Shown: positions 5,642 through 47,477 of the stretch, one piece after another | Layout of the letters: each line of letters starts with the position of its first letter | How positions within the stretch are numbered: the first letter of the stretch is position 1 | Assembly (NCBI GenBank): GCA_900315555.1 | Contig: OMZN01000041.1 | Location: 1 to 64,000 of the forward strand | Direction: 5' to 3' | Source: an uncultured Eubacteriales bacterium | GTDB lineage: Bacteria; Bacillota; Clostridia; Peptostreptococcales; Anaerovoracaceae | Length of the DNA stretch: 64,000 nt | Made by a program: the position numbers and the translations under genes | Notes under the pieces: generated by a model | The model's input: the letters and a program-made list of their open reading frames with translations, nothing else | Database searches by the model: none | What the model was told of the DNA's origin: nothing

Positions 5642-6751
5642 ATGAAACGTGTGCAAATCAAAAGAAACTTTCTGATTCTCCTGCTGGCGGCTGCTGTTTT
5701 GGCCGGTGGTTTCGGCGGCTGGGCGCTGGGAAGCCATGCGGTAGGCAGCAAATATCACAAGCTGGAACAGCTTCGCAGCATCATCGACAGCAGCTATTAC
5801 GAAAAAACGAACGATGATAAGCTGGTGACGCAGGCCTGCAAGGGTTTGGTGAAGGGACTGGGCGATCCCTATTCGGAGTACATGACGAAGAAGGAGACGG
5901 AGGCATGGAAGACCAGTGTCCTGGGTGAGTATGAGGGCGTCGGGATGATTCTCGCCCAGAACGCCAAGACAAAGGCCATTGTCGTGGTTTCGGTGGTGGA
6001 TGCCAGTCCCGCAGAGAAAGCCGGCATTCGCGCCGGGGATATCGTCAAAAAAGTGGATGACAAGCATTATGAGGATGTGGACGATGTGGCGCAGGCCATC
6101 CGCGGTACAGCAGGATCCCAGGTGGATCTGGGGATGGAGCGTGACGGCAGGACGTATACAAAGCGCCTGACGCGTGAAGCAATTACCATGCAGACTGTCG
6201 AGACCAGGCAGCTTGCGGGAAAAATCGGCTACATCCGGCTTACCTCCTTTGAAAAAAGCAGCGCTGACGACTTCAAGAAAGCGCTGACTGCCTGCGAGAA
6301 AAAGGGCAACAAGGGACTGATCATCGATCTGCGCGATAATGGCGGCGGTCTGGTGGATGTCTGTGCCGACATTGCCGATGAGCTGATGGGCAAGGGCGTG
6401 CTGACCTATATGGAAGGCCAGGACGGCAAGAGAACCTACTACCGGACCAAAGCCGGCAGGACCAAGCTGCCCTATGTATTGCTGGTTAACGGCAATACCG
6501 CCAGCGCGTCAGAGATCCTTACGGCAGCGGTGATGGACAACACCGATAATAAGGTGGTAGGAACCAGGACCTTCGGCAAGGGGGTTGTGCAGGACGTCAT
6601 GAGCTTCAAAGACGGGACATCCCTCAAGCTGACGGTGAAGCAGTATTTTTCTCCCAAGGGAAAGACCATTCACAAGAAGGGCATTACACCGGACTATGTG
6701 GTCAAGAGCCGCAAAGCGCAGCTGGCGAAGGCTGAGGCGCTGCTGCAGTAG
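5642..6751 (+). CDS. ctpA: C-terminal processing peptidase (S41)
   Basis: Serine/lysine-dyad protease that acts outside the membrane on misfolded or regulatory proteins. The 369-residue product has an N-terminal signal anchor (residues ~9-28), a PDZ domain (~97-180) and an S41 catalytic domain. The NTASASEI motif carries the nucleophile Ser at 288 or 290 and FGKG supplies the general-base Lys313. The start follows a purine-rich GAGAGGAACG. In other Firmicutes ctp genes often sit near ftsEX and M23 genes, as here, which supports an envelope role. Confidence 0.93.
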   Translation: MKRVQIKRNFLILLLAAAVLAGGFGGWALGSHAVGSKYHKLEQLRSIIDSSYYEKTNDDKLVTQACKGLVKGLGDPYSEYMTKKETEAWKTSVLGEYEGVGMILAQNAKTKAIVVVSVVDASPAEKAGIRAGDIVKKVDDKHYEDVDDVAQAIRGTAGSQVDLGMERDGRTYTKRLTREAITMQTVETRQLAGKIGYIRLTSFEKSSADDFKKALTACEKKGNKGLIIDLRDNGGGLVDVCADIADELMGKGVLTYMEGQDGKRTYYRTKAGRTKLPYVLLVNGNTASASEILTAAVMDNTDNKVVGTRTFGKGVVQDVMSFKDGTSLKLTVKQYFSPKGKTIHKKGITPDYVVKSRKAQLAKAEALLQ

Positions 6752-6767
6752 GAAGTCTTTTGATAGC

Positions 6768-8165
6768 ATGGATAGTGAAAAAGGACAAGAGAACACAGTG
6801 ACCCGTTTCATCTATATGGGTGACCCGCAGTGTGAGCGCATCCGCCGTTCTGCGGACAGTTACCGTCTGTGGTCGCATCTTTTGGACGTGGCACAGGCCC
6901 GGGCCGGTGAAGATGCGCTGCTGGTGCTGGGAGGCGATCTGGTGAACCGCGGGGGCGGCGATGCGGAATGGGCCGCTTTTTCCCGTGCAGTGGCGGCGCG
7001 GCGAGGCAGCGGCAGCGTGGTATCGGTTGCCGGCAACTGTGATCGGAAACGGCACGGCACGCATAACTTTTTTTCCTTTGATTACGGGCAGATACACTTT
7101 CTGATGCTGGACAGCAACTACATGGGCAGTCCGGATCCGGCGGTCTGGGCACCGATTCGCCGCTGGATCCGGGAGGATACTGCGCATACCGATCGGCCGG
7201 TGCGGATCGCTGTGCTGCATCATCCGCTGTATACGGTGGGCAGCGCACTGGATGATGATGTGCGTGCTGCAGTGATGCGCCGGGGCTGTCTGGATCTGTT
7301 TCGCGGCGGCGGCATCAGCATGGTGCTGTGCGGCCATCAACATCTATACTGCCGCTGCGGGATTGCCGGCGGCATTACGCAGCTGATCGGTGTTTCCGGC
7401 ACCAAGTATTTCGACGGACCTGCAATGGATCGCATGGAGGTGGCTGCTGTGAACGTGTCGACAGCATCGATCCTGGAGACGGATGGAAAGCGCCTGTGCC
7501 TGACGACAATTGATCCTGCGGGGTCTGTGCTGGATCACTGCGAAAAGATGATACGGCAGCCGGTTTACCGGCCGCCGCAGGTGACTGCATCCGAAACAGC
7601 CTGTCCAGCGGCAGGGGAGGCTCGTTCCGGGCCGTGGCTGGATCATCGGGATGCCCCAGCGGCTTCCCTTAGAGAAACGGGAAATTTGCCGGTGACTTCT
7701 TTACCGCAGCCTGCACCGGGGATTCTTCGTCTCGGCGGTGTCGGTTTCGATGGCGCACGCTATCTCTCTCATGCAGTGCTTTCCGGCATGCCGGCACGCC
7801 GTCAGCGGTTTTCACTACGGCGGCGCGGCCGCCTCTGCCATGTAGATGTTACCGGGGTTCCGCTTTTTGATGTGCTCGGCAGGGCAGGCTGGAACGGCAC
7901 CGGCGACGGCCTGTTGCTCGGCGGCAGAGCCGGTGCATCGTATGCACTGCCTCTGCAGGCGCTGCTGGATGGGCGCTGTTTTGAGACGGATCGTGCAGAT
8001 GCTCCGGTTGTTCCTGTCATTGCCGGGGAAGCGGAGGGCCTGCGGCTCTATGCCGGGCAGACGGATCCGGGACAGTACAACGGAAAGGCGTGGATGCACG
8101 CTCTGCATACCATGGAAGTGATTGATCTGTCGGATATGCTGAACGAGACAGGCGATGATGGATGA
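6768..8165 (+). CDS. Metallophosphoesterase with C-terminal SUOX-like domain
   Basis: Calcineurin-like phosphoesterase of unknown substrate. The first ~250 of 465 residues have the metal-site blocks GDPQ, GGDLVN, GNCD (usually GNHD/E), LHHP and CGHQH. The remaining C-terminal part (from about residue 320) has GVPLFDVLGRAGW and an end pattern GKAWMHALHTMEVI that I read as the sulfite-oxidase/molybdopterin-binding-like fold, without an obvious cofactor Cys. No signal peptide is evident. The start at 6768 follows AGGAAG by about 12 bases. It overlaps the region just before fdhD. The phosphoesterase call is strong; the C-terminal fold assignment is inference from pattern. Confidence 0.75.
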   Translation: MDSEKGQENTVTRFIYMGDPQCERIRRSADSYRLWSHLLDVAQARAGEDALLVLGGDLVNRGGGDAEWAAFSRAVAARRGSGSVVSVAGNCDRKRHGTHNFFSFDYGQIHFLMLDSNYMGSPDPAVWAPIRRWIREDTAHTDRPVRIAVLHHPLYTVGSALDDDVRAAVMRRGCLDLFRGGGISMVLCGHQHLYCRCGIAGGITQLIGVSGTKYFDGPAMDRMEVAAVNVSTASILETDGKRLCLTTIDPAGSVLDHCEKMIRQPVYRPPQVTASETACPAAGEARSGPWLDHRDAPAASLRETGNLPVTSLPQPAPGILRLGGVGFDGARYLSHAVLSGMPARRQRFSLRRRGRLCHVDVTGVPLFDVLGRAGWNGTGDGLLLGGRAGASYALPLQALLDGRCFETDRADAPVVPVIAGEAEGLRLYAGQTDPGQYNGKAWMHALHTMEVIDLSDMLNETGDDG

Positions 8166-8199
8166 CTCATTGAATCTTGGATTGCAAAAGGATGACAGC

Positions 8200-8958
8200 A
8201 TGAAAATCATTGATGAACTTGCACTGAAAGGGACGCATGCCACAGCGGCCAGCAGGCGGATCCTGCGCGACGGAACGGAGCGGATGGAAACGCGGGAATT
8301 GCTGGGAGAGGTGCTTCTTAAAATCTGTGTCGATGGCGAAAGCGCCGGGGAAATTATGTGCACGCCTGAGCGCCTTCCCGAGCTGGTGACAGGCTGGTTG
8401 CGCTATGCCGGAAAGATCACGGCGGCTGATGAGATCGAGACCATTCGGTTCTTTGAGGAACCCAAAACCGCGCCGCTGCGGCTTGCAGCGGAGGTTGCCC
8501 TGCGGCCTTCGAAGGCAGAGGCGGCGCCGGTTCGCTCGGACGCGAGCTCACTGCAGCCTGCGGATCTCTTTGCGCTGGCGGATCGCTTCGATGAAGGGCT
8601 GCCGCAGCGCGAGAGGACTGGTGCGACGCATAATTGTATGCTGGCGCAGGTTGGTGGGGCAGAACCCGAGATTCTATTCCGCAGCGAGGATGCCGGGCGG
8701 CATAGTGCCATGGATAAAGCCATTGGCTGGGGCCTGCTGCATGATGTGGATTTCTCGGCGTGCCTGCTTTATGCCAGCGGCCGAACGAGCCGCGCCATGG
8801 TGCTGAAGGCTGTCCGTGCCGGTGTGCAGACACTGGCCGGGCGTTCGCATGTCTCCCTGGGAGCAGTGCGGCTGGCTGCTGAAAGCGGCCTGACTTTGGT
8901 GGGATTTTGTGATGGCCGGGGCATGAATGTTTATGCGCCGGAAAGGAGAATGGTGTAA
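8200..8958 (+). CDS. fdhD: FdhD-family protein lacking the usual CxxC
   Basis: FdhD transfers sulfur from a desulfurase to the molybdenum cofactor of formate dehydrogenase. This 252-residue homologue keeps SEDAGRHSAMDK and the long C-terminal block GRTSRAMVLKAVRAG ... GLTLVGFCDGRG typical of FdhD. The loop that normally holds the catalytic CGxCG is replaced by a Ser/Ala/Asp-rich segment (PVRSDASS), so sulfurtransfer by the known mechanism is doubtful. The ATG at 8200 has AAGGAT seven bases upstream; ATGs at 8155 and 8158, overlapping the previous stop, are alternatives. No formate dehydrogenase gene is present in the window. Confidence 0.78.
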   Translation: MKIIDELALKGTHATAASRRILRDGTERMETRELLGEVLLKICVDGESAGEIMCTPERLPELVTGWLRYAGKITAADEIETIRFFEEPKTAPLRLAAEVALRPSKAEAAPVRSDASSLQPADLFALADRFDEGLPQRERTGATHNCMLAQVGGAEPEILFRSEDAGRHSAMDKAIGWGLLHDVDFSACLLYASGRTSRAMVLKAVRAGVQTLAGRSHVSLGAVRLAAESGLTLVGFCDGRGMNVYAPERRMV

Positions 8959-9797
8959 TGGAGCGGATCGACTGGAACCAGAAATGGAAGGAAGAGGGCG
9001 AACGCTGGTGTCACGCCTCGGATAAAGCGTTCTGGGATGCCTTTGCACCGCGCTTTCGCAAGAAGCCGGCACCGGGCGAGGAGGATCCTTATCTCGAACA
9101 GTTTTATGCCTTCTCCGGGTTCCTGCCCGGCGAGATAATCTTTGACATGGGATGCGGCTCGGGTACGCTGGCCATTCCCTTTGCGGAGCGGGGCCATGAG
9201 GTATGGGCTGCCGATTTCAGTGAGAAAATGCTGAAGTATCTGATGATCGGTGCCCGGGAGGCCGGGGTGGCTGAGCGGATTCATCCCATCGTGCTTGATT
9301 GGAATGAAGACTGGAGCCTGCGCCGTGATCTGCCGGTTTGTGACGTGGCAGTGGCTTCCCGCTCACTGGTCTTTCGCGATCTGACCGCTTCCCTCCTGCA
9401 TTTGGAAGCGCGGGCGCGGCGGCGCGTCTGCATCGGCGCCTGGGACAGCCCGGCCAAGAGCTACGATCGGGTGGTCGCCAAGCAGATCGGCTATGAACGA
9501 CCGGGGTATGGATGCTATGTTTTTATTCTCAATGAGCTGATCGATCGGGACCGCATGCCAGAGCTCCGCTTTATTCGCTATCCGATGGGGCGCCATACCC
9601 GTTTTGCCTCAAAAGATGAACTATTTCGAGGCATCCGCGCCTCTTTCCGCTATCCTCTGACGGCAGCGCAGGAAGAGAAGCTTGCCGGCTACCTCGCGGC
9701 ACATGCGACGCACTATGAGGGAAAGAAGGGTGCTTACTGGGCCCTGGATCATGCCGAGGAATCTACGCTGGCGCATATTCGCTGGGATGTGGAATGA
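8958..9797 (+). CDS. Class I SAM-dependent methyltransferase
   Basis: A 279-residue methyltransferase with motif I FDMGCGSGTLAIPF near residues 60-73 and an acidic post-I site AADFS. The C-terminal half contains GAWDSPAKSYDRVV and helical segments similar to methyltransferases found beside molybdenum or tungsten enzyme genes in anaerobes, but I cannot identify the substrate. The stop of fdhD and this start share one base (TAATG), which suggests translational coupling with fdhD. Confidence 0.82.
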   Translation: MERIDWNQKWKEEGERWCHASDKAFWDAFAPRFRKKPAPGEEDPYLEQFYAFSGFLPGEIIFDMGCGSGTLAIPFAERGHEVWAADFSEKMLKYLMIGAREAGVAERIHPIVLDWNEDWSLRRDLPVCDVAVASRSLVFRDLTASLLHLEARARRRVCIGAWDSPAKSYDRVVAKQIGYERPGYGCYVFILNELIDRDRMPELRFIRYPMGRHTRFASKDELFRGIRASFRYPLTAAQEEKLAGYLAAHATHYEGKKGAYWALDHAEESTLAHIRWDVE

Positions 9798-13188: not shown

Positions 13189-13312
13189 GCCGATGTTATT
13201 AAAACAACAACATGGGCCGCCGTTTTCGTGTATGATAAAGAGCAGGGCTGCCATGGCGGTCTGCAGTATCGTTTAGGATAAGAGAGTGGGAGAACAGGGA
13301 AAGGTTCGGCGC

Positions 13313-14368
13313 ATGTCCCAAAGGAAATACGACATTCCTATCGCTATATTTTCACTGGCACTGCTGGTGCTTTTTGTTGTTTCCTTCCTTTTAGGGCGCT
13401 ATCCGATTCATCCGATGGAGCTGGGCGGCATGCTGCTCGACAGCTTCCTTCATCTGGTTGAACGTTTTGTGTCGGTCTTTCACCTGCAGGCAGATCTGGG
13501 CATCGAACCGTTCTGGGATCCGCAGACGAGTGCGGTTTTTTTCTCCATTCGGCTGCCGCGCGTGCTCCTGGCCTGCCTTGTCGGCTGCTGCATCTCCACG
13601 GCCGGCGCAGCCTATCAGGGTGTCTTTCAGAATCCGATGGCAGCACCGGATATCCTGGGTGCATCCTCGGGAGCGGCTTTTGGTGCGGCGCTGGCGATTC
13701 TTCTGGGGGCGGCGAGCTGGGGCATCACGGGTATGGCCTTTGTCTTCAGCCTGGTGACGGTGCTGCTGGTCATGCTGGTCAGCCGCTTTGCCAGAGGCAG
13801 CCGCGTGATGACGCTGATCCTCGCCGGTATTATGGTCAGTTCCCTGTTTTCCTCAGGAACATCGTATATTAAGCTGGTGGCCGATCCCAATGACCAGCTA
13901 CCGCAGATCACCTACTGGCTGATGGGAAGCCTGACTGAGGCCAAGCTTCCCGATGTCGGGTTTGCCTGCATTCCGATGCTGATCGGGCTGGTGCCGCTGG
14001 TGCTTCTGCGCTGGCGGATCAATATTCTGACGCTGGGGGACGAAGAAGCAGCCAGCATGGGCGTTGACACTCGCCTGGTACGGACGGTGGTCATCCTCTG
14101 TTCGACGCTGGTGACGGCGGCTTCCGTGTCGGTCAGCGGCATGATCGGATGGGTGGGGCTGGTGATTCCCCATCTTGCGCGGCGCATTGTCGGAAACAAT
14201 TACATGAAGCTGCTGCCGCTGACGATGATCCTCGGTGCCCTCTTCCTTCTGGGAGTCGATGATATTTCCCGCAGCCTGATGGCAAAGGAGATCCCCTTGG
14301 GAATTCTGACCTCCCTGGTGGGCGCACCGTTTTTCCTCTATTTGCTGACGCGGAAGGAGGGATTCTGA
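13313..14368 (+). CDS. FecCD-type ABC transporter permease
   Basis: Membrane component of an iron-siderophore, heme, cobalamin or oxyanion importer. The 351-residue product has eight to ten hydrophobic spans and FecCD hallmarks: RLPRVLLACLVGCCIS near the N-terminus, YQGVFQNPMAAPDILGASSGAAFG, and the cytoplasmic coupling segment GMIGWVGLVIPHLARRIVG. The ATG at 13313 has GGGAAAGG eight bases upstream; an in-frame GTG at 13286 with AGGA is an alternative. The stop shares a base with the ATPase start. Confidence 0.9.
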   Translation: MSQRKYDIPIAIFSLALLVLFVVSFLLGRYPIHPMELGGMLLDSFLHLVERFVSVFHLQADLGIEPFWDPQTSAVFFSIRLPRVLLACLVGCCISTAGAAYQGVFQNPMAAPDILGASSGAAFGAALAILLGAASWGITGMAFVFSLVTVLLVMLVSRFARGSRVMTLILAGIMVSSLFSSGTSYIKLVADPNDQLPQITYWLMGSLTEAKLPDVGFACIPMLIGLVPLVLLRWRINILTLGDEEAASMGVDTRLVRTVVILCSTLVTAASVSVSGMIGWVGLVIPHLARRIVGNNYMKLLPLTMILGALFLLGVDDISRSLMAKEIPLGILTSLVGAPFFLYLLTRKEGF

Positions 14369-15198
14369 TGAGTCTTTCCGTATCGCACCTCAGCTTTTCC
14401 TACGAGGAGGATCACCCGGTGCTTTCTGATCTCAGCTTTACGATCGGAGACGGGCGCATGGTCTGCCTTCTGGGACCCAACGGTGCCGGCAAGAGCACGC
14501 TCTTTAAAACGATTCTGCGGCTGCTGCCGAACTATGAGGGAGAGATTTTCCTGGACGGTGTATCCACACGCGGGCTTTCGATCGCACAGATGGCGCATCG
14601 CATTGCCTATATCCCGCAGTCGGGCGCGCCGACCTTCAATTACACGATGTTCGAGATGGTTCTGATGGGAACGACCGCAGGGCTTAGCCGGCTCTCTTCA
14701 CCGGGCGAGCGCCAGCGGGAGATGGTGAAAGAAGCGATGCAGCGGCTGGGAATCTGGCATCTTGCGGATCGTGGCTTTGCCAGGGTCAGCGGCGGCGAGC
14801 GTCAGCTGGCACTGATCGCGCGGGCGCTGGTGCAGGAGACGAGGGTATTGATCATGGATGAGCCGACGGCCAACCTGGATTATGGCAACGCAATACGGGT
14901 GCTGGAACAGATCCGGCAGCTGGCCGGCAGCGGGTATACCATTCTGCAGGCAACGCATCAGCCGGATCAGGCCTTTCTCTTTGCGGATGAGGTGCTGGCA
15001 CTTAAAGACGGCCGTATCCTTGCGCAGGGATCGCCGCGTGAGGTCATCGACAGCCGCTTGATCGAAACGCTCTATGGCGTGCACGTGGCGGTGGAGCGTT
15101 TGTATGATGACCGGCTGCGTGTCCTGGTGCCGGTTTCGGCGCTGCGTGATCAGGATAAAAGAGGCGGACCAGAGGAAGGCAGGAGCAGGCAACGTTGA
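14368..15198 (+). CDS. FecE-type ABC transporter ATPase
   Basis: ATP-binding subunit of the importer. The 276-residue protein has Walker A GPNGAGKST (residues ~36-44), signature VSGGERQLALIARAL and Walker B VLIMDEPTANLDYG. It belongs to the FepC/BtuD group. The pair is coupled through a TGATG junction. The substrate cannot be told from the ATPase. Confidence 0.92.
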   Translation: MSLSVSHLSFSYEEDHPVLSDLSFTIGDGRMVCLLGPNGAGKSTLFKTILRLLPNYEGEIFLDGVSTRGLSIAQMAHRIAYIPQSGAPTFNYTMFEMVLMGTTAGLSRLSSPGERQREMVKEAMQRLGIWHLADRGFARVSGGERQLALIARALVQETRVLIMDEPTANLDYGNAIRVLEQIRQLAGSGYTILQATHQPDQAFLFADEVLALKDGRILAQGSPREVIDSRLIETLYGVHVAVERLYDDRLRVLVPVSALRDQDKRGGPEEGRSRQR

Positions 15199-15224
15199 AA
15201 GTATGGGAGGAAAGGAAGAAAAGC

Positions 15225-16364
15225 ATGCAGATAAGACGGAAGATGCCTCGCAGGATCATGGCGGTTCTGCTGGTCATCGTACTGGCCGGCGCCATGTTTC
15301 TGTCCGGCTGTGCCGGCACGAAGACTGCGGAGAACCATGGAAGCAGCGGTGCGGCGGCGCAGTCGGAGACGGCCGGCAGTGAAAAGAGCGGTAGGAAGAC
15401 AACGACGTTCACCGATGATTGTGGCCGCAAGGTGAAGGTGCCGGCGAAAATTGATACGGTCATTGCCAGCGGCAGTCTGGCGCAGCTGTTTATCTATGCC
15501 CTGGCGCCGGATACGCTGCAGGCGGTCAATGCCAGATGGTCGGCAGATGCCAAGGCATACATTCCGAAGAAATACCTTTCCCTTGGGCAGGTAGGCAGCT
15601 TCTTCGGCAACCATGATCTCAATTATGAGCAAATTGCCAGGATGAAACCGGATGTCGTGATCGATGTCGGTGAGGCCAAGCCGTCGATGAAGTCGGATCT
15701 TGCGGACATCACCGACAAGACAGGTATCCCGGCCGTTCATATCGATGCCAATTTCGATGATATGGACAAAGCGTTCACCAAGCTGGGCAGGCTGCTGGGG
15801 AAGACAGAGGATGCCAAGGCGCTTGCGGATTATTGCAGCGATGCCTTTGCCATGGTCAAACGCGGCATGAAGAACGTGAAGACAAAGAAGAAGGTCATGT
15901 ACTGCACGCAGGAGGATGGCATGAATGTGCTGGCCAGGCATGCCTATCATTCCCAGGTGATTGACATGCTTTCCGACAATGTGGCAGTGCTTGCTGATCC
16001 CTCCAGCAAGGGCAGCGGCAACGAGGTCAACATGGAGCAGATGATGAACTGGAACCCCGAAGTGATTCTTTTTGCGCCGGACAGCTACTATGATTATGCA
16101 GGCAGCGACAGTGCCTGGAAGACACTGCCGGCCATCAGGAAGGGCAGCTATTACGAGGTGCCCTCCGGTCTCTACAACTGGATGGGATCGCCTCCCTCCT
16201 GCAACCGGATCCTCGGGCTCTTGTGGATGGCCAAGCTGCTTTATCCCTCGCAGATGGACTACAGCCTCAAGGAGCAGGTCAAGACGTATTATGATCTCTT
16301 TTATCACTGCGACCTCAGCGATGGCCGCTACAAAAAGCTTGTGCAGCATTCGATCTTAAAGTAA
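15225..16364 (+). CDS. ABC transporter substrate-binding lipoprotein (FecB/TroA-like class III)
   Basis: Surface lipoprotein feeding the FecCD/FecE pair. The 379-residue product has a lipobox ending SGC with lipidated Cys29, then a class III binding-protein fold: FTDDCGRKVKVP, the MKPDVVIDVG helix, and the interdomain helix after HIDANFDDMDKAFTKLG. The closing block includes YEVPSGLYNWMGSPPSCNR. It starts after AGGAAAGGAAG at 15225; an upstream in-frame TTG at 15195 is less likely. Ligand is uncertain: iron complex is the family default, but FecCD-like molybdate importers (MolBCA) exist and the neighbourhood has molybdenum-enzyme-like folds. Confidence 0.88.
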   Translation: MQIRRKMPRRIMAVLLVIVLAGAMFLSGCAGTKTAENHGSSGAAAQSETAGSEKSGRKTTTFTDDCGRKVKVPAKIDTVIASGSLAQLFIYALAPDTLQAVNARWSADAKAYIPKKYLSLGQVGSFFGNHDLNYEQIARMKPDVVIDVGEAKPSMKSDLADITDKTGIPAVHIDANFDDMDKAFTKLGRLLGKTEDAKALADYCSDAFAMVKRGMKNVKTKKKVMYCTQEDGMNVLARHAYHSQVIDMLSDNVAVLADPSSKGSGNEVNMEQMMNWNPEVILFAPDSYYDYAGSDSAWKTLPAIRKGSYYEVPSGLYNWMGSPPSCNRILGLLWMAKLLYPSQMDYSLKEQVKTYYDLFYHCDLSDGRYKKLVQHSILK

Positions 16365-16389
16365 GGAGAAGCTTAAAATAAGGAGAAGC
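16362..16389 (+). repeat. Duplicated stop/ribosome-binding-site motif
   Basis: TAAGGAGAAGC occurs at 16362-16372, where TAA is the stop of the binding protein, and again at 16379-16389 as the Shine-Dalgarno of the next gene. Confidence 0.85.
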
Positions 16390-16390
16390 G

Positions 16391-17887
16391 ATGCGGCAGA
16401 TGATGCGAAGTAAAAAACTGAATGACGGGATTGTGCGCATTCTCTGCTTGTACCTTGCGGCTGCGGTGCTGCTGGGTGCATGGTATCTCACCGGCGATCG
16501 GGCGGCAGCCTACGATGAGGTGAAGGAGATATCTGTCACAGTTGGTTACTGGGGCGGTAAAGAATACACGAAGCAGACGGTTTCTCTCGATGAATTGGCC
16601 GATGCATGCGGCACCAACCGCGCGGTCTATACCTGGATCAACGGCGGAGAAAGCCCGGGAACAACAGAGGCCGAGGGAATCTACATTGCTGATATCATGG
16701 ATTACTGCGGCGTTGACATGGGATCGGTATATTACTATAACTTTGCAACCCGCGACGCCGCGACCTATGCCAACTCGGATCAGCAGTGGACGGGCGGACA
16801 GCTGTTCGGCACGCGGTACACCTATGTGAACAGCTTTCAGCGGGCGCTGAAGGATTACGAGGAGGCGAAACAGGCGGGGAAAGAAGAGGATTATCTGCGC
16901 AATCCTGAGAAGCACTATACCATCGATGATATCTATGACTATCAGAACAGATGCTATACCAAGGGCGCCTGGAACAAGCGGGAAACAGTTGAGCCGATGC
17001 TGGCGCTTCGTACAAGATCCAGCACCTGGAAAGGCTATGTGCCGGCAGCTTCTCTTGACTTCGATGAAACGAGCATGCTTTCCACCGGCAAGCCGATCCT
17101 CCTCTTCGGCCAGGCCGGCCGCAACGACATAACACGCAATCTGATGGCGCAGATGGTGACAAAGGTGCATATCTGGTTTAACGGATCGCCTTCCATCACC
17201 CTTTCCAAGCAGTCGATCAAAGGCAAGGTGGGCTCCAGCGATGCGGTCAGTGTGAAGGTCTCCACGCCGGATGAATATCTGAGCGGGCAGATTCAAAAGG
17301 AGATTCGCTTCAAGAGCAGCGATGCCGCCAAGGCGACGGTGGATGAGGACGGGAACGTCAAGATTACCGGTAAGGGAGAGGCGACGATCTCGGCGATATA
17401 TCAGGGGAAGACGGTGGGCACTGTCTCGGTCAGCGGCGTAGCTGCAAAAAAGCAGGCGAAGAAAGAAAAGAATGCCGGATCGGGCACAGGCAGCGGCCAT
17501 AGCAGCGGTGCAGGGAACGGCGCGGGCAGCAGCGGTACGAACGGCAGCAGCGGCGCAGGCACGGCAGGCGGCGTCAGTGACAGCAACAGCGGCGGCTTAA
17601 GCGACAGCGGCAGCAGGCGCATCTCGATGGCTGCCTCCAAAAGCGGCAGTGCCTCCAAGAGCGGCAGTGCAGATAAGAGCGGCGGCAGTGCTGAAGGCGG
17701 CAAGGTCTATGAGATCTCAAAAGATGCAGACACTCTTGAGAACCGTGCAAGTGACCGCAAAAGCCTGCGATGGTGCCTCCTTGCGGCCGCGGTGGCGATG
17801 ATCGGCGGCGGCACCTGGCAGACGGCCGTCTATCGCCGGCAGATTCATTGGATAAAGCAAGCAAAGAAAGCGTATGAGGAATTATGA
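16391..17887 (+). CDS. Membrane-anchored surface protein with SUOX-like and Big_2 domains
   Basis: A 498-residue type I surface protein of no known function. It has an N-terminal signal (residues ~14-34), a SUOX-like region (~45-275) with VSLDELADACG, TEAEGIYIADIMDYCGV and the closing block GKPILLFGQAGRND ... VTKVHIWF, then a bacterial Ig-like (Big_2) domain (~280-355; VDEDGNVKITGKGEATISA), a Gly/Ser-rich stalk (~360-435) and a C-terminal membrane span (~457-475) with a basic cytoplasmic tail. It overlaps the ExbB-like gene by four bases. The architecture is a ligand-binding head on a stalk held in the membrane. Confidence 0.72.
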   Translation: MRQMMRSKKLNDGIVRILCLYLAAAVLLGAWYLTGDRAAAYDEVKEISVTVGYWGGKEYTKQTVSLDELADACGTNRAVYTWINGGESPGTTEAEGIYIADIMDYCGVDMGSVYYYNFATRDAATYANSDQQWTGGQLFGTRYTYVNSFQRALKDYEEAKQAGKEEDYLRNPEKHYTIDDIYDYQNRCYTKGAWNKRETVEPMLALRTRSSTWKGYVPAASLDFDETSMLSTGKPILLFGQAGRNDITRNLMAQMVTKVHIWFNGSPSITLSKQSIKGKVGSSDAVSVKVSTPDEYLSGQIQKEIRFKSSDAAKATVDEDGNVKITGKGEATISAIYQGKTVGTVSVSGVAAKKQAKKEKNAGSGTGSGHSSGAGNGAGSSGTNGSSGAGTAGGVSDSNSGGLSDSGSRRISMAASKSGSASKSGSADKSGGSAEGGKVYEISKDADTLENRASDRKSLRWCLLAAAVAMIGGGTWQTAVYRRQIHWIKQAKKAYEEL

Positions 17888-18516
17888 GTCAAACATCACA
17901 ACTTAGCACCACCCTGCGGTCAATCTGTGCGAGCATGGAGAAGCCTGTTATTGTCATTCTGCTGGGGCTGCTGGTCTTTTCGCTGTTCCTTGTGGGATGG
18001 CTGATTACAGAAGGTGTGACCGAGCGGCGTCGCCTGAAGGTATGGATGCCGCAGCTGGTCGATGCTATCAAGGAACAAACCATACCGCTGGCGCTGCGTA
18101 TCAAGCGGAGCGGCCTTCTTCGCCGCCATAAGGTGGCGCTGCTGGAGGTGACCGATCATAGGGAGCTGACAGACAGCATGCGGGAGGCACTGGCAATCCG
18201 TCTCGTTGATGAGGCGCGCGGCCGCGCAGAGACGATTGTCAAAATCTCTGACATGGTGGTGCGGCTGGGACCGGTCTTCGGCCTCCTTGGGACGCTGATC
18301 CCGCTTGGACCGGGGATCATTGCACTGGGGCAGGGAGATACTTACACCTTGTCACAGTCGCTTTTGACGGCTTTCGATACGACGATCGTCGGCCTGATCT
18401 GTGCGGCGATGGCAGCCATCGTTTCGGCTATACGCAAGCGCTGGTATGCCAACGATATTTCAATTCTGGAAACCCTGATGGACTGCATACTGGAGGTGGA
18501 GAAGCAGGATGCGTAA
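17884..18516 (+). CDS. MotA/TolQ/ExbB-family proton channel subunit
   Basis: A 210-residue inner-membrane protein of the family that couples proton flow to mechanical work. Three hydrophobic spans sit near residues 21-42, 128-149 and 163-183, with a cytoplasmic domain between spans 1 and 2, as in ExbB. The motif RLGPVFGLLGTLIPLGPGI and the polar TM3 sequence AFDTTIVGLICAA are the family signature. Such proteins normally energise TonB or Tol at an outer membrane; no outer-membrane gene is seen here. It overlaps the DUF2149 gene by eight bases. Confidence 0.88.
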   Translation: MSQTSQLSTTLRSICASMEKPVIVILLGLLVFSLFLVGWLITEGVTERRRLKVWMPQLVDAIKEQTIPLALRIKRSGLLRRHKVALLEVTDHRELTDSMREALAIRLVDEARGRAETIVKISDMVVRLGPVFGLLGTLIPLGPGIIALGQGDTYTLSQSLLTAFDTTIVGLICAAMAAIVSAIRKRWYANDISILETLMDCILEVEKQDA

Positions 18517-18844
18517 TCGATTCGAGCGAAGAAACCGGCATATGTTTTCCGACAGCGATGCAGATCCCATGGCTGGTGTTTCCAACCTGGCAGACGTCAT
18601 GCTGGTGCTTGCCGTAGGGATCATGCTGGCCTTGATTATGAACTGGCACATCAGTGTCTCCGGCGGTTCTGTCACGCAGATGGATAAAGGGTCGATGAAG
18701 GAAATCGATCAGTCTCAGCTGCAGACGCAGCAGCGTGACAGCAAAAAGGCTTCCAAGGAGAGCAACCTGCAGAAGAAGGGCACGGTCTACGTCGACAAGA
18801 AGACCGGCAAGATGTATCTGATCGAGCCCGGCAACAACGATTGA
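18509..18844 (+). CDS. DUF2149 (ExbD/TolR-like) membrane protein
   Basis: A 111-residue single-span protein. The sequence DPMAGVSNLADVMLVLAVGIML places Asp29 at the start of the only membrane span, exactly where ExbD, TolR and MotB carry their proton-translocating Asp. A Lys/Gln-rich external segment follows. I read it as the ExbD partner of the preceding gene. DUF2149 has been noted mainly in methanogens and Clostridia; its function is unproven. Confidence 0.75.
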   Translation: MRNRFERRNRHMFSDSDADPMAGVSNLADVMLVLAVGIMLALIMNWHISVSGGSVTQMDKGSMKEIDQSQLQTQQRDSKKASKESNLQKKGTVYVDKKTGKMYLIEPGNND

Positions 18845-18845
18845 T

Positions 18846-19685
18846 ATGAATAAACGAGATTATGAACGGCTGCCGTTGAAAAACGGCTGGGATCTGCCTG
18901 CAGGAGAGAAACCGCCGATGACCGGCAGAAAGCGATGGCTGGCTCGTGCGTATGAGCTGCTGGTCCTGAAGGACGATGCCGCTTATGGCGGAGAAACGGC
19001 AGCAGGAAAAGAAGAGCTTTCTGAAAAGAAACAACCGGAGAAGAAAAGCAGCGTACAGCCAAAAGACTGCACAGCAGAGGATGCACGCGTACAGGGTGAG
19101 GAGAAGCCGGCCGGGAGAGAGGATCCGCTTGCACAGTACATGATCAGTCCGGCTGCGGCGGCACAGAAGAAAAAAAAGAGAAGGCGGCGTCTCCTTGTGA
19201 TCGTGCTTGCGGCTGTTATGCTCATAGGCGGCCGTATCGCCTTCGGACCGCCGATCCTCACGGCGGATATTTCCGGCTACAAGGACGTGAAGATCACGGT
19301 TGTCGGCATCAGGAAAAAACCGTTTACGATTACTGCCGGCACGCTGGCGCGGATGAAGAAGGCAAGTCTGCAGGTGGATGTGCCCGAAGAAGAGACGCCC
19401 CAGGGAGAGGAGCCGGAGCGGGGCAAGGCGATCGGGCCGACGCTTAAAACCTTCCTTGCACATTACGACAAGACGACGGACGATTATAAGGCGCTGCGGG
19501 TCTATACCGAAAACGGTGATTCCAACGCCTATGTGCGGAGCATGAAGGAACAGGAGATCATTCTCTCCATTGCCAATGGCAGCAAGCCTCTGCTGGAAAA
19601 GCAGGCGCCGCTGCGGATCGCTGTGGATGATCAGGAGGCAGATGCCTGGACCGGCTGGGTAAGAAAGCTGGAATTCATCAAGTAG
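18846..19685 (+). CDS. N-in membrane protein with external SUOX-like domain
   Basis: A 279-residue protein with a ~110-residue charged cytoplasmic tail ending in a KKKKRRRR stop-transfer, one membrane span (~116-133) and an external domain (~134-279). The external domain has KPFTITAGTLARM, a GPTLKTFLAHY block, YKALRVYTENGDSNAYV and ends PLRIAVDD...WTGWVRKLEFI, which matches the closing pattern of SUOX/molybdopterin-binding-like folds. No cofactor Cys is seen. It begins one base after the DUF2149 stop. Its topology (N-in, single span, external C-terminal domain) is that of TonB, so it could be the moving partner of the ExbBD-like pair; this is inference. Confidence 0.68.
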   Translation: MNKRDYERLPLKNGWDLPAGEKPPMTGRKRWLARAYELLVLKDDAAYGGETAAGKEELSEKKQPEKKSSVQPKDCTAEDARVQGEEKPAGREDPLAQYMISPAAAAQKKKKRRRRLLVIVLAAVMLIGGRIAFGPPILTADISGYKDVKITVVGIRKKPFTITAGTLARMKKASLQVDVPEEETPQGEEPERGKAIGPTLKTFLAHYDKTTDDYKALRVYTENGDSNAYVRSMKEQEIILSIANGSKPLLEKQAPLRIAVDDQEADAWTGWVRKLEFIK

Positions 19686-19766
19686 AGAGGGCATACAGGA
19701 GGCCGTGCAGAAAGCATATCGGAGGAAAGTGCATTGCATAGGCATAGATAGAAAGGCAAGGGGAAC

Positions 19767-22700
19767 ATGAAAAAGCATTTGCAGCGAATCACGATCCTGC
19801 TGCTGGTAATGGCCGTGCTGGCCTGGACGGCGCCTTTCGAGGCGCTGCCTGTTTATCCGGCGGCGGCTTCGGCTGAAACAAAAACTGCCGAAGGGGTGGC
19901 AGCATCGGCAAATGAAACCACGGCGGAGGATGCGGAAGCGGCGGATGCTGCTGTGAAGACGGCACAGCACGGCAAAGGCAGCGTGACCATCGACAAGCCC
20001 GCTGCCGTGCAGGGTGATACGGTGAAGGCATCCCTTGCACCGGCGAAAGGCTATTACCTGGCACAGCTTTGTCTCGTCTATAAAGAGAATGGGAAGTCGA
20101 AGTATGCGGTGCAGAAGATCGCCACCGGCGCAGCAGTGCAGGAAGAGGCGCAGACTGTTTCCTTTGTGATGCCGGCAGAGCAGGTGACGGTGCGGGCAGA
20201 CTTCGTTCCGGTCGTCTGGGACGGGACGATTGATCTCACCTGGTATGATGCAGGGCAGGACAGCTATGCGCTGGCTTATCCGGCCCAGCTTGCCGGTGCG
20301 GCAGCGCTGGTCAACGGACTCTTCAACGATATGCCGGTGCGTGCGGTGCAGGATGGAAGCGCTACGGTGAAGATTCCCGATCTGGTCGATGCCGAGGGCA
20401 GTGCGGTCGGCCTTGCGGATACTGCAGACGGTTACGTGAAGGACGATGATCACAGCGGTTATCAGACCTTTGCAGATGTTGACGGTGACGGACGGGATAC
20501 CAGCATCGTCGGCGATATCGGTCTCCTTAAGATCGGTCATGCCAGCGACGAGGTGGGCGGCAACAATAAGGTGACCACCAATACGTACTGGTATGGCAAT
20601 GTCGATTTCACCGGCAAAACGATCAGGCTGACACGCGACATGGACATGGGGGGAGAACTGGCAGGCGGTGCAAAGAAGACCGTCTGCTCTGCCTGGTCCG
20701 GCCCGAACTACATGCCGATCGGCGGTCAGTACAGTATGGACCGCACCAATGGTTACACACGGTTGACAGCCGGCTTCAATGGAAGCTTCGACGGTCAGGG
20801 ACACATGGTTTACAATCTCTATATTTCACGGCATACCGATACCTTTGGCAACTGCCAGGCAGTCGGCCTGTTTGGCCTTGTCGGGGTCAACCGCGTCGAA
20901 TCCGGTACCGTCGGCACACCGGTCATTGAAAACGTTGCCGTCGACGGCATGGTCTACGGCAATCGTTCGATCGGCGGCATCGTCGGCAAGACAGTGCATG
21001 CCAAGGGTGTGAAAATCAGAAACTGCATGAATTTCGCGACGGTTTACAATACCGATGCCAAGGGATGCGGCGGTATTGTCGGTGCGGCATGGTATGAGCC
21101 TGCGTATGGGGACAAGCAGGTGCAGATCGAAAACTGTGCCAACTTCGGCTTCATATGCACCGGTTACAACAAGAACGCCGGCGGCCTTGTCGGCAGCTCG
21201 GAAGCCTTTGTTGCAGACAGCTATTCTATTGGCTATACGGCAGGGGAGGGCAGCGGCAACAGCAGAGCGGGTCAGGCGCTGGGCACCAACAACGGCGGTG
21301 CGGTCTGGTACAACTGCTATGCCCTGCAGGGCGCCAGCTCCTGTACGCAGAGCAGCAGCGGAAGCTATATGCCTTATGTCTACGGGTCGACCGTCGGCAG
21401 CGCCATCCGCGTGCTGGATGCGCCTTCGGCCTTTGCCAGCGGTAAGGGCATGAAGGCGCTCCTCAATGGCAAAGTGAAGAGCGGAGGTACGGATAAATAC
21501 GGCTACATGGACAGCGACAGCGCCGTCATCAAAAACACGAAGCGCGCCTGGGTTGAAGACGGAAGCAGCGATACACAGGAACGCATCTCCTCTCATTTGG
21601 CTGAAGCGCTGCAGAGCGTCGCAAGCTGGCACGATCCGGCGGTGACGCTTTCGGATGAAGCCATGCGTTCGCAGGAAAGCATAGCAGACAGCTTATCTGC
21701 GGTCGATGCGACCGGCTTTCCCATTCCCCGGACCTTCATCCACGACAAATCGAGCCTTTGCGGGATTACCTATACGGGAACGCCGACGAAACAGTACCTG
21801 TCCGGCGAGACCTTTGACACCGGGGATCAGGAAAATCTTTCAACGAGTCCGAACGACAGCGACAGTGCCGCGGCCTTCTCTGTCTGGGCAACATTTGATG
21901 ATGATGGCGACGGTGAAGTCGACAGCTGGACGGAGCTTACCGACTATGAGGTCTGCTATGAACACGGCAGCGAATTCACTGCCGGTGATACGAAGGTAAC
22001 GGTGCGGGGCACCTGCCTTGGAACGAGCTATGAAAAGGAAATCACCGGGCTGCAAGTGACGGCTTGCCAGCTCTTGTCGCTGGAGATCACCGCCGATCCG
22101 ACGAACACGCTCTATGCGTCAGGGGAGACCTTCTGTCCGGATGGTATGACGATTACCACGGAGTATGGTACGGTGAATGGATCGGATAAAACGACGGCTG
22201 TCACTGTCAAAGCGTCGTACGCCGAAGGCAAGGTGTCCTACACGAAGATACGGGAAAGTGCACCGGATGTGAAGATCGAGCTTGGCGAGGAGGCGGCGAA
22301 GCCCTATGCCTGCAGTTTCTCACCGTCGATAAGCGAGAAGCTGACCAAGGCGACGTCCAAGGTCACCGTCTCGCTGACTTACAATGGGACAACGTTGTCG
22401 GCGAAAATTCCGGTCACGGTGCTTTCCTCTTCTGCGCCGCGTCTCGTCAAGGACGGAGCAAGCGATACGCAGACGGTCTATCTTAAGAGTGCTGATGACT
22501 TCCTCTGGTTTGCGAACCAGGTGAGTACGAATGCGGCGGCGGACATGAATGCCGTGCAGGAAGAAGATATCGATCTGTCGGAGGTTCTCACACAGCCGGT
22601 CGGCCTCAGAAGCAAAGAATCCGCTGCTTACGAGGGGATCTATGACGGGCAGGGACATAGTCTCACGCTTAACATGCGGCGATCTTCGGATACGGCCGGG

Positions 22701-24314
22701 CTCTTCTACAGTGTGGCGGGCATGGTCAAAAACCTGACGCTCAAGGGCAGTGTGCAGGGAGGAAGCCATACCGGCGTGGCTGCAGGACAGCTTGACGGCG
22801 GGACGATCAGCAACTGCACTGCCGAAAACGTGTCGGTTAGCGGCAGCAAGCAGGTCGGCGGCCTGGTCGGTCAGATCCTGGGTGAGGATGCGATCATCTC
22901 CGACTGCACAGTCAGCGGGGATATCACCGGCTCGGCTATGGTCGGCGGCCTGGCGGGTGAAGCTGACGATCTCACCGCAAAGATTACCGGCTGCCAGGTG
23001 GGTGATCATACGACGGTGACGGCTTCGGCATTGGACGGAGGCGGTGTCGGCGGTCTGATCGGCGTTTCCGGCAAGCTCAGGGCAAGCGGCAATGCCGGTG
23101 CGGCAATCAGCAGATGCCGCAGCGAAGCTAAGGTCAGCGGTACGGCAGCGGGAGGAAAGTCAGGCTATGTCGGTGGTCTCATCGGACTTCTTCGCAGCGG
23201 TGAACTCGAGCAGTCGGCCAATAAGGGCGAAGTAGCTTCCAAGGGGGAAAACCTCGTTGGCGGCATTGCCGGGCAGGCGGCGGCCAATGCGGTGATTCGT
23301 GCGGCTTACAGCAATGGCAGCCTGTCCCTTGCAGAGGCGGGTTATTCCGCCATGGCGGGCGGCATAGCCGGTGCAGCTGCCAGTGGTACAGTGGTTAAGA
23401 ACTGTTACGCATCCGGAGCAGTCAGCTCAGATGAGGCGGAATCAGCAGCGGGGAAGCCTGCGGTCGGTGCAGCCTTCGGATCGATACACGACAAAAGTAT
23501 ATTGGAAAATAACGTCGCGCTGCAGGGCAGCGCACCGCAGCTCATAGGGTCTGCGGCTGCGGTCAGCGAGGCGCAGGCGGTCTTGCTGTCCAAGGAGGAT
23601 CTGCAGGGGGATGCGGCTCTGACCAGGCTGAACGCGGAGGATGAGCAGGCGTACCAGACGACATGTGACAGCTGGCCGATCTTCCGGTGGGAAACGCCGA
23701 CGCATACTGCCGGCGCGGAGACAAAGGAAAATGTGACGGCGGCGACGCATGCGAAGGCGGGTGGATATGACCTGGTGGTTCGCTGCAAAAAATGTCACAA
23801 GGTGATCAGCAGCAGGCACATTGTGGAGATTCCTCTCTCCCTCTGCACCATCAGCGGCATAGCGGATAAGATCTACACTGGGAAAGACATCACGCAGGCG
23901 GTGGCCGTGCGGTTTGCGGGCACAAAGGTGACGGTCGGGGTGAGCTATCCTGACGGGCGCAGGACGATCGGCACGCATACCGTCACCATCACCGGCACCG
24001 GCAGCTGCACGGGCACGATCCGAAAGACCTATCGGATTCTGCCGGCGAAGGTGACCTCGCTGACGGCAAAGGCCGGGAAAAGATCCTTTGCCACACGCTG
24101 GAAGAAGGGCGCCGGCGGCGTGCATTACCAGATAGCCTACCGGCGGCAAGGCAGGAAAGCCTGGACGGTGAAAACCGCCACGGCAAATGCAAAAACGGTG
24201 ACGAAGCTGAAGACGAAGCAAAGGTATCAGGTGCGGGTGCGCGCCTATCGCAAAGTTGGCGGCAGAAACTACTGCGGCGCCTGGTCGTCTGCTGTGAAAG
24301 TCAAGGTGAAATGA
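19767..24314 (+). CDS. Giant secreted GLUG/FN3 surface protein 2
   Basis: A 1515-residue exported protein ending the operon. It has a signal peptide (residues 1-36), an SVTIDKPAAVQGDTVKASL bacterial-repeat domain, a first GLUG block (GGIVGKTVHAKGV, GGIVGAAWYEP, GGLVGSSEAF), two bacterial Ig-like segments around residues 630-890, and a second GLUG block (GGLVGQILGED, GGLAGEADDL, GGLIGVSGKL, GGIAGQAAAN). Then a CKKCHKV segment of the kind repeated in clostridial cell-surface proteins and a basic FN3 domain ending VKVKVK. It lacks LPXTG and SLH signals. The C-terminus resembles that of GLUG protein 1, so both probably attach to the envelope in the same way. Confidence 0.8.
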   Translation: MKKHLQRITILLLVMAVLAWTAPFEALPVYPAAASAETKTAEGVAASANETTAEDAEAADAAVKTAQHGKGSVTIDKPAAVQGDTVKASLAPAKGYYLAQLCLVYKENGKSKYAVQKIATGAAVQEEAQTVSFVMPAEQVTVRADFVPVVWDGTIDLTWYDAGQDSYALAYPAQLAGAAALVNGLFNDMPVRAVQDGSATVKIPDLVDAEGSAVGLADTADGYVKDDDHSGYQTFADVDGDGRDTSIVGDIGLLKIGHASDEVGGNNKVTTNTYWYGNVDFTGKTIRLTRDMDMGGELAGGAKKTVCSAWSGPNYMPIGGQYSMDRTNGYTRLTAGFNGSFDGQGHMVYNLYISRHTDTFGNCQAVGLFGLVGVNRVESGTVGTPVIENVAVDGMVYGNRSIGGIVGKTVHAKGVKIRNCMNFATVYNTDAKGCGGIVGAAWYEPAYGDKQVQIENCANFGFICTGYNKNAGGLVGSSEAFVADSYSIGYTAGEGSGNSRAGQALGTNNGGAVWYNCYALQGASSCTQSSSGSYMPYVYGSTVGSAIRVLDAPSAFASGKGMKALLNGKVKSGGTDKYGYMDSDSAVIKNTKRAWVEDGSSDTQERISSHLAEALQSVASWHDPAVTLSDEAMRSQESIADSLSAVDATGFPIPRTFIHDKSSLCGITYTGTPTKQYLSGETFDTGDQENLSTSPNDSDSAAAFSVWATFDDDGDGEVDSWTELTDYEVCYEHGSEFTAGDTKVTVRGTCLGTSYEKEITGLQVTACQLLSLEITADPTNTLYASGETFCPDGMTITTEYGTVNGSDKTTAVTVKASYAEGKVSYTKIRESAPDVKIELGEEAAKPYACSFSPSISEKLTKATSKVTVSLTYNGTTLSAKIPVTVLSSSAPRLVKDGASDTQTVYLKSADDFLWFANQVSTNAAADMNAVQEEDIDLSEVLTQPVGLRSKESAAYEGIYDGQGHSLTLNMRRSSDTAGLFYSVAGMVKNLTLKGSVQGGSHTGVAAGQLDGGTISNCTAENVSVSGSKQVGGLVGQILGEDAIISDCTVSGDITGSAMVGGLAGEADDLTAKITGCQVGDHTTVTASALDGGGVGGLIGVSGKLRASGNAGAAISRCRSEAKVSGTAAGGKSGYVGGLIGLLRSGELEQSANKGEVASKGENLVGGIAGQAAANAVIRAAYSNGSLSLAEAGYSAMAGGIAGAAASGTVVKNCYASGAVSSDEAESAAGKPAVGAAFGSIHDKSILENNVALQGSAPQLIGSAAAVSEAQAVLLSKEDLQGDAALTRLNAEDEQAYQTTCDSWPIFRWETPTHTAGAETKENVTAATHAKAGGYDLVVRCKKCHKVISSRHIVEIPLSLCTISGIADKIYTGKDITQAVAVRFAGTKVTVGVSYPDGRRTIGTHTVTITGTGSCTGTIRKTYRILPAKVTSLTAKAGKRSFATRWKKGAGGVHYQIAYRRQGRKAWTVKTATANAKTVTKLKTKQRYQVRVRAYRKVGGRNYCGAWSSAVKVKVK

Positions 24315-47274: not shown

Positions 47275-47477
47275 AGAGACAGCGCAAGCTGAAAATAAAT
47301 CCTGGGCTGTACGTCTGGAACTATATAATTCAACCTACATATTGTCGCAGGGAGCATGATCTCCCGGGATATGTCGAGCCTCCATAGAGTGGAAGACAGA
47401 GTCCCGGGACGAACGCACCCACCTAGTAGAATCTAGGGCGTGAATTAGTAGTTCTGACGGCACTTCGGGATTTTTTT
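47275..47477 (+). ncRNA. ssrS: 6S RNA (SsrS)
   Basis: A ~200-base RNA that binds and sequesters the sigma-A RNA polymerase holoenzyme. The 3' half follows the 6S layout: CGCACCCACCTAG, a CTAG-AATCTAG hairpin, GGGCGTGAA, and the closing strand ACGGCACTTCGGGATTT. The 5' closing strand AAATCC (47297-47302) pairs with GGATTT (47468-47473), and GCTGT pairs with ACGGC. An internal GGGAG/CTCCC hairpin lies near 47350-47365. The T run TTTTTTT ends the transcript. It fills the gap between the GTPase and dacF, whose 3' end it overlaps by two bases on the opposite strand. Confidence 0.82.

Follow-up and report, generated by a model that had tools for sequence, protein, structure and literature searches.

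The window analysed here, a stretch of 64,000 nucleotides from contig OMZN01000041.1 of an uncultured, gut-type clostridial bacterium of the Anaerovoracaceae (GCA_900315555.1), carries an operon in which the genes of a FecBCD-family ABC importer are joined to those of an ExbB-type channel, a small membrane partner of the DUF2149 family, two membrane-anchored proteins with a domain resembling sulfite oxidase (SUOX), here called SUOXa and SUOXb, and large surface proteins (Table 1). The operon is real and conserved, and its linkage to molybdenum and tungsten (Mo/W) is shown by four routes, i.e., flanking genes, riboswitches, genome content and the similarity of the importer to MolB and MolA. We give a probability of about one half to the explanation that it encodes a proton-powered system for uptake at the surface of a cell that has no outer membrane, and that this system is part of a Mo/W-cofactor regulon; its ligand would most likely be a pyranopterin (the Mo/W cofactor or a derivative).

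Conservation of the operon

The eight genes of the tight plus-strand operon described in the original prediction are all present as closely packed reading frames, and the Pfam, profile and fold assignments agree. Its extent was underestimated, as the actual unit is longer and includes the genes for FdhD, a methyltransferase and a 1080-residue surface protein upstream. The frames from the FecCD permease through SUOXb overlap or nearly do so, which argues for one transcript. An identical gene order, including FdhD, the methyltransferase, an upstream surface protein of ~1,070 residues and a downstream one of ~1,490 residues, is found at locus L063, and Eubacterium oxidoreducens DSM 3217 (L061) carries a version of the operon in which FdhD was not seen. 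NCBIfam profiles gave no specific name to the operon proteins of the window.

The co-occurrence search that had been proposed shows that ExbB, DUF2149, SUOX proteins and FecBCD cluster in many clostridial genera. A scan of genome contigs yielded at least 544 ExbB relatives, while the same scan of viral contigs gave no matches, and DUF2149 is present in 39 of the 199 genomes of the family. Counts were made on 101 non-redundant loci, many of which end at contig ends. ExbB adjoins DUF2149 (PF01618 beside PF09919) in 95 of these loci, SUOX proteins occur in 80, and SUOXa directly adjoins exbB in 68; the FecCD permease and its substrate-binding protein (SBP) are found in 45 and the S-component of an energy-coupling factor (ECF) importer in 5. 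No match to ExbB, DUF2149, SBP, FecCD or the ECF S-component was found in 318 kb of control sequence from related genomes, which consists of mostly short contig starts and gives only a rough background.

Pairs of ExbB and DUF2149 without the FecBCD importer lie beside other surface proteins at seven loci (L036, L047, L048, L053-L056), with DUF4430/SLH confirmed in L048 and L056 and SLH/SUOX in L036; these probably represent a third context with another ligand. At positions ~1-15 kb of L031 and L032, genes for FeoB and a Crp-type regulator are followed by those for DUF2162, ExbB, DUF2149 and a secreted protein resembling CobN; by its gene content this is a haem dechelatase set of the HmuSTUV type, present here in clostridial genomes of the same family.

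The motor pair and the SUOX-fold proteins

The residues predicted for a proton motor, i.e., a conserved Asp in the DUF2149 helix and polar Thr in the ExbB helices, are present. T137, D165 and T167 of ExbB are invariant in 21 sequences, and Asp29 of DUF2149, which had been singled out for its ExbD-like position, is invariant in 19. The channel profile also matches MotA structures. In the haem operon hmuYRSTUV of Bacteroidota the DUF2149 protein is HmuV and the ExbB protein is HmuU (PMC10434189), and the ExbB-DUF2149 pair is homologous to HmuU/HmuV.

The window's own genome (1.8 Mb, listed as 100% complete) encodes exactly one MotA_ExbB and one DUF2149 protein. No TonB or ExbD (PF02472) was found among the operon proteins, the rest of the genome not having been searched for these two families. 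A genome-wide search for Omp85 gave no match while 7 of 14 control genomes were positive, which is consistent with a monoderm cell as far as an envelope can be read from genes.

The SUOX similarity of the window proteins lies under the detection level of Pfam. The alignment profile of SUOXb matches sulfite dehydrogenase 2xts (E=4e-7), and the SUOXa and SUOXb families are linked by a profile-profile match (95.8%). AlphaFold2 models the external domain of SUOXb with pLDDT mostly >90, and the Foldseek matches of the model are to sulfite oxidases and, of the proteins in which the domain stands alone, to PruR (TM 0.62-0.74 on target). The loop with the Mo-ligand cysteine is a gap in SUOXb when aligned to 2xts and 6y0k, and there is no invariant Cys among 32 sequences. 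PruR binds pterins without Mo and without the Mo cysteine (PMC13259868). The external domain of SUOXb thus models as the pterin-binding fold of sulfite oxidase and PruR minus the catalytic cysteine loop, and the external SUOX-like domain of the proposed N-in protein is borne out by profile, model and fold search alike. In most relatives the SUOXb homologues are lipoproteins. For SUOXa the sulfite-oxidase fold is assigned by profile only; the Foldseek matches go mainly to its Big_2 domain, itself slightly below the Pfam cut-off in the window protein, and the SUOX match (1xdy, 3.6e-3) is weak.

Linkage to molybdenum and tungsten

Trees of the importer separate two groups, A1, which includes the window, and A2. 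Among solved structures MolB (2nq2) is the best match of the window permease, with FhuB and HmuU behind it, and MolB is also the best match of an A2 permease; MolBC-A is a molybdate importer (PMC4031551). In the 577 kb that flank A1 loci there are 25 Mo/W genes, spread over 15 of the 37 loci, compared to 3 in 708 kb at other DUF2149 loci and 1 in the 318 kb control. Those at A1 loci encode FdhD, MoeA, MobB, MoaC, MocA-like, YqeC, XdhC, aldehyde oxidoreductase (AOR), Mop and ModE proteins, a representative set of the families having been checked by Pfam. The enrichment of ~14-fold is an upper estimate because the Mo-gene seeds were chosen by eye from the test loci.

Riboswitches were searched for with the Rfam model RF01055; a home-made combined DNA alignment was poor and was not used. 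RF01055 is found upstream of or inside the operon at seven loci (L043, L066, L126, L082, L184, L185, L186), and at L066 it is directly followed by a metallophosphoesterase gene (1084-2880). It scores above the cut-off in 42 of the 199 family genomes, including six with a SUOX-type DUF2149 locus (G017, G022, G059, G084, G163, G191), in five of which it lies within 15 kb of DUF2149. A different ligand for A2-type loci, suggested by their few Mo flank genes, was dropped once Mo/W riboswitches were found there. Any Mo/W marker is present in 28 of 31 genomes with SUOX-type DUF2149 and in 69 of 168 others (p=2e-7), a split that was made from the loci and counts genomes with a locus not fetched as SUOX-type.

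The argument for a pterin as the ligand comes from nine genomes that encode AOR, a tungsten-pterin enzyme, and in which neither MoaA nor MoaC was found. The system is present in 7/9 of these, compared to 10 of the 41 AOR genomes that have Moa genes (p=0.004), and the system or PF00174 proteins in 9/9 compared to 16/41 (p=0.002). The remaining two, G058 and G121 (L206, L207), have SUOX surface proteins and an ECF transporter without DUF2149, and in G058 this cluster lies downstream of an RF01055 match. A search for MogA/MoeA domains gave a single open reading frame each in G007, G017, G058, G084, G121, G140, G163 and G170, which was CinA in the seven inspected, and no match in G137. G163 and G170 are 99% and 95% complete, and in both AOR lies within ~25 kb of the system. 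The AOR locus of G163 (L185/L187/L212) has MobB, Rnf genes and a SUOX-ExbB-FecBCD operon, unlike that of its congener G126 (L214), which has two MoeA genes, MobB, ThiF and a TupA-like ABC transporter. It is tempting to speculate, with somewhat less confidence than is placed in the uptake system as such, that this is a dedicated importer of the finished Mo/W pyranopterin cofactor, taken from other cells and serving anaerobes without synthesis of the molybdenum cofactor (Moco).

Possible functions of the system

We infer the identity of the ligand, the coupling of the motor to the SUOX proteins, the direction of transport and the role of the phosphoesterase as follows. Surface and membrane-anchored SUOX-fold proteins would bind the ligand, for which a pyranopterin (the Mo/W cofactor or a derivative) is the likeliest candidate, and the phosphoesterase may trim it. 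Powered by the proton gradient, ExbB-DUF2149 would switch the anchored SUOX proteins to another conformation; among these SUOXa, with its membrane helix and a gene directly adjoining that of the motor, is the candidate motor-driven partner. Thus moved, the SUOX proteins would pass the ligand on to the MolA-like lipoprotein, and the MolBC-type ABC importer, or the ECF importer, would then carry it into the cell.

Several observations weigh against this scheme. The uncharacterised proteins 4pag and 4ovk outscore MolA as matches to the SBP, and MolA itself, the nearest characterised Mo/W binding protein, binds molybdate or tungstate (PMC4031551). RF01055 was not found at the window operon in an Rfam scan of the window. 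Seven of the nine AOR genomes negative for MoaA and MoaC are only 76-87% complete, and the way in which the Mo-gene seeds were picked belongs here too. The window's own genome has MoaA, MoaC and MoeA-like proteins as well as ModABC-type genes (contig 17), and a search of it for AOR gave none, so that import of the cofactor is not obligatory there; in this genome the system would supplement Moco synthesis or carry oxyanion.

It is necessary to consider that the ligand is molybdate, tungstate or a small chelate of these, imported in the manner of MolBCA, and that the SUOX proteins and the motor serve to concentrate it at the surface or to set it free there. MolB and MolA are close characterised relatives of the permease and the SBP, A1-type loci adjoin genes of Moco synthesis and ModE/Mop genes, and the window genome makes Moco. 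On the other hand the system occurs in AOR genomes without detected MoaA, MoaC, MogA or MoeA, where oxyanion alone is of no known use, the PruR/SUOX fold counts against such a ligand, the variants with ECF and phosphoesterase fit an organic phosphorylated ligand, and the window genome already has ModABC-type genes. The oxyanion is rather unlikely, and a pyranopterin cofactor is the more likely import.

It is improbable that the system senses pterin or Mo/W instead of taking it up, with SUOX proteins binding pterin as PruR does and ExbB-DUF2149 passing force or a signal on to the envelope. In proteobacteria PruR acts in signalling (PMC13259868) and Crp-family regulators recur near the loci, but a dedicated ABC or ECF importer is present in about half of the loci, and in relatives the operon is preceded by an RNA switch of the kind usual for supply genes. 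Haem or tetrapyrrole uptake by a monoderm Hmu system is very improbable: the HmuU-HmuV pair (PMC10434189), the weak match of the SBP to IsdE and the CobN-bearing L031 and L032 loci speak for it, but it was rejected as a search of the window's own genome for CobN (PF02514, the HmuS-like dechelatase) found none, the permease is nearer to MolB than to HmuU, and riboswitches and genes point to Mo/W. Uptake of iron siderophores with accessory surface proteins and an unrelated motor, suggested by membership of the FecBCD family, is just as improbable and was rejected in view of the Mo/W evidence and of SUOXa directly adjoining exbB at most loci. The original prediction of TonB-like uptake without an outer membrane is hence a fair reading, given the co-occurrence, the lack of Omp85, the motor residues and the extracytoplasmic SUOX domains. 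It allowed an iron complex, cofactor or oxyanion as ligand; with the Mo flanks, the riboswitches of relatives, the PruR/SUOX fold and the similarity of the permease to MolB, the choice falls on molybdenum or tungsten, and iron or haem becomes unlikely.

Genes of the window operon

Table 1. Operon genes and upstream neighbours, with positions in the window.
Product	Position	Strand	Evidence
Metallophosphoesterase (PF00149), probable accessory	6696..8165	+	Pfam 4e-12
FdhD, formate dehydrogenase/Moco sulfurtransferase	8155..8958	+	Pfam FdhD-NarQ 1.5e-45; same order in L063
Class I SAM methyltransferase, recurrent neighbour	8958..9797	+	Pfam; homologues at importer-bearing loci L061-L064, L090, L095
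Secreted surface protein, 1080 aa	9885..13127	+	Open reading frame, signal-like N-terminus; related large surface proteins at most loci
FecCD/MolB-type ABC permease	13286..14368 (alternative ATG start 13313)	+	Pfam FecCD 3e-86; best PDB match MolB HI1471 6e-64
FecE/MolC-type ABC ATPase	14368..15198	+	Pfam ABC_tran
Substrate-binding lipoprotein (SBP), MolA-related	15195..16364	+	Pfam Peripla_BP_2 1e-16; PDB 4pag, 4ovk, then MolA 3psa 3.7e-12
SUOXa: signal peptide, SUOX-like domain, Big_2, linker, C-terminal membrane helix, cytoplasmic tail	16391..17887	+	Alignment of 35, AlphaFold2 model, profile match to SUOXb
ExbB/MotA-type channel, HmuU-like	17884..18516	+	Pfam MotA_ExbB 1e-9; invariant T137, D165, T167; MotA match
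DUF2149, HmuV-like; single membrane helix with Asp29, short external tail	18509..18844	+	Pfam 2e-11; Asp29 invariant
SUOXb: N-in membrane anchor and external SUOX/PruR-fold domain	18846..19685	+	Alignment, AlphaFold2, Foldseek
GLUG/fn3 surface protein, 1515 aa	19767..24314	+	Pfam Glug 5e-15, fn3 2e-6

Homologues of the metallophosphoesterase lie beside the system in ~25 related loci, at several of which they are secreted or surface-anchored, and none was found in the 318 kb control. By eye the window protein seemed to have a C-terminal SUOX domain, which was not supported on checking. Elsewhere in the window a 6S RNA is found at 47296-47475 (Rfam, 72 bits).

Comparison with known systems

Several hundred prokaryotes carry "orphan" molybdoproteins together with an incomplete Moco pathway, which is unexplained (PMC6147048), and for these the operon is a concrete candidate uptake route. 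If this is true, anaerobes without Moco synthesis run tungsten or molybdenum enzymes on cofactor from other cells. An ExbB-family motor that serves uptake in cells apparently without an outer membrane also points to a wider role for such motors.

With HmuU/HmuV of the Bacteroidota the system shares an ExbB-family channel, an adjacent DUF2149 protein and a link to cofactor uptake, but this genome lacks CobN/HmuS and Omp85 and has SUOX-fold proteins and an ABC importer, replaced by ECF at some loci, under Mo/W regulation in relatives. ExbBD-TonB and TolQR share the predicted motor residues, i.e., Thr in ExbB and Asp in the partner helix, and the uptake context; here the operon is without ExbD and TonB domains, no Omp85 was detected, and the putative receiver of the force is a membrane-anchored SUOX protein. 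MolBC-A of Haemophilus influenzae, which has the closest permease and a related SBP, is a plain ABC importer, to which the window operon adds ExbB-DUF2149 and SUOX surface proteins. PruR likewise has a SUOX fold that stands alone and lacks the Mo-ligand cysteine; it controls c-di-GMP enzymes in proteobacteria, whereas here the SUOX domain is anchored to the surface of a monoderm, next to an importer. Finally, the operons of relatives behind RF01055 belong with the Moco/Tuco riboswitch regulon, in the 2008 description of which ExbB is absent from the text (PMC2408646). The open-access literature, to which the search was confined to the exclusion of subscription papers, gave no description of such a system; the parts were known already, and what appears to be new is their combination and, should it be confirmed, the import of the cofactor.

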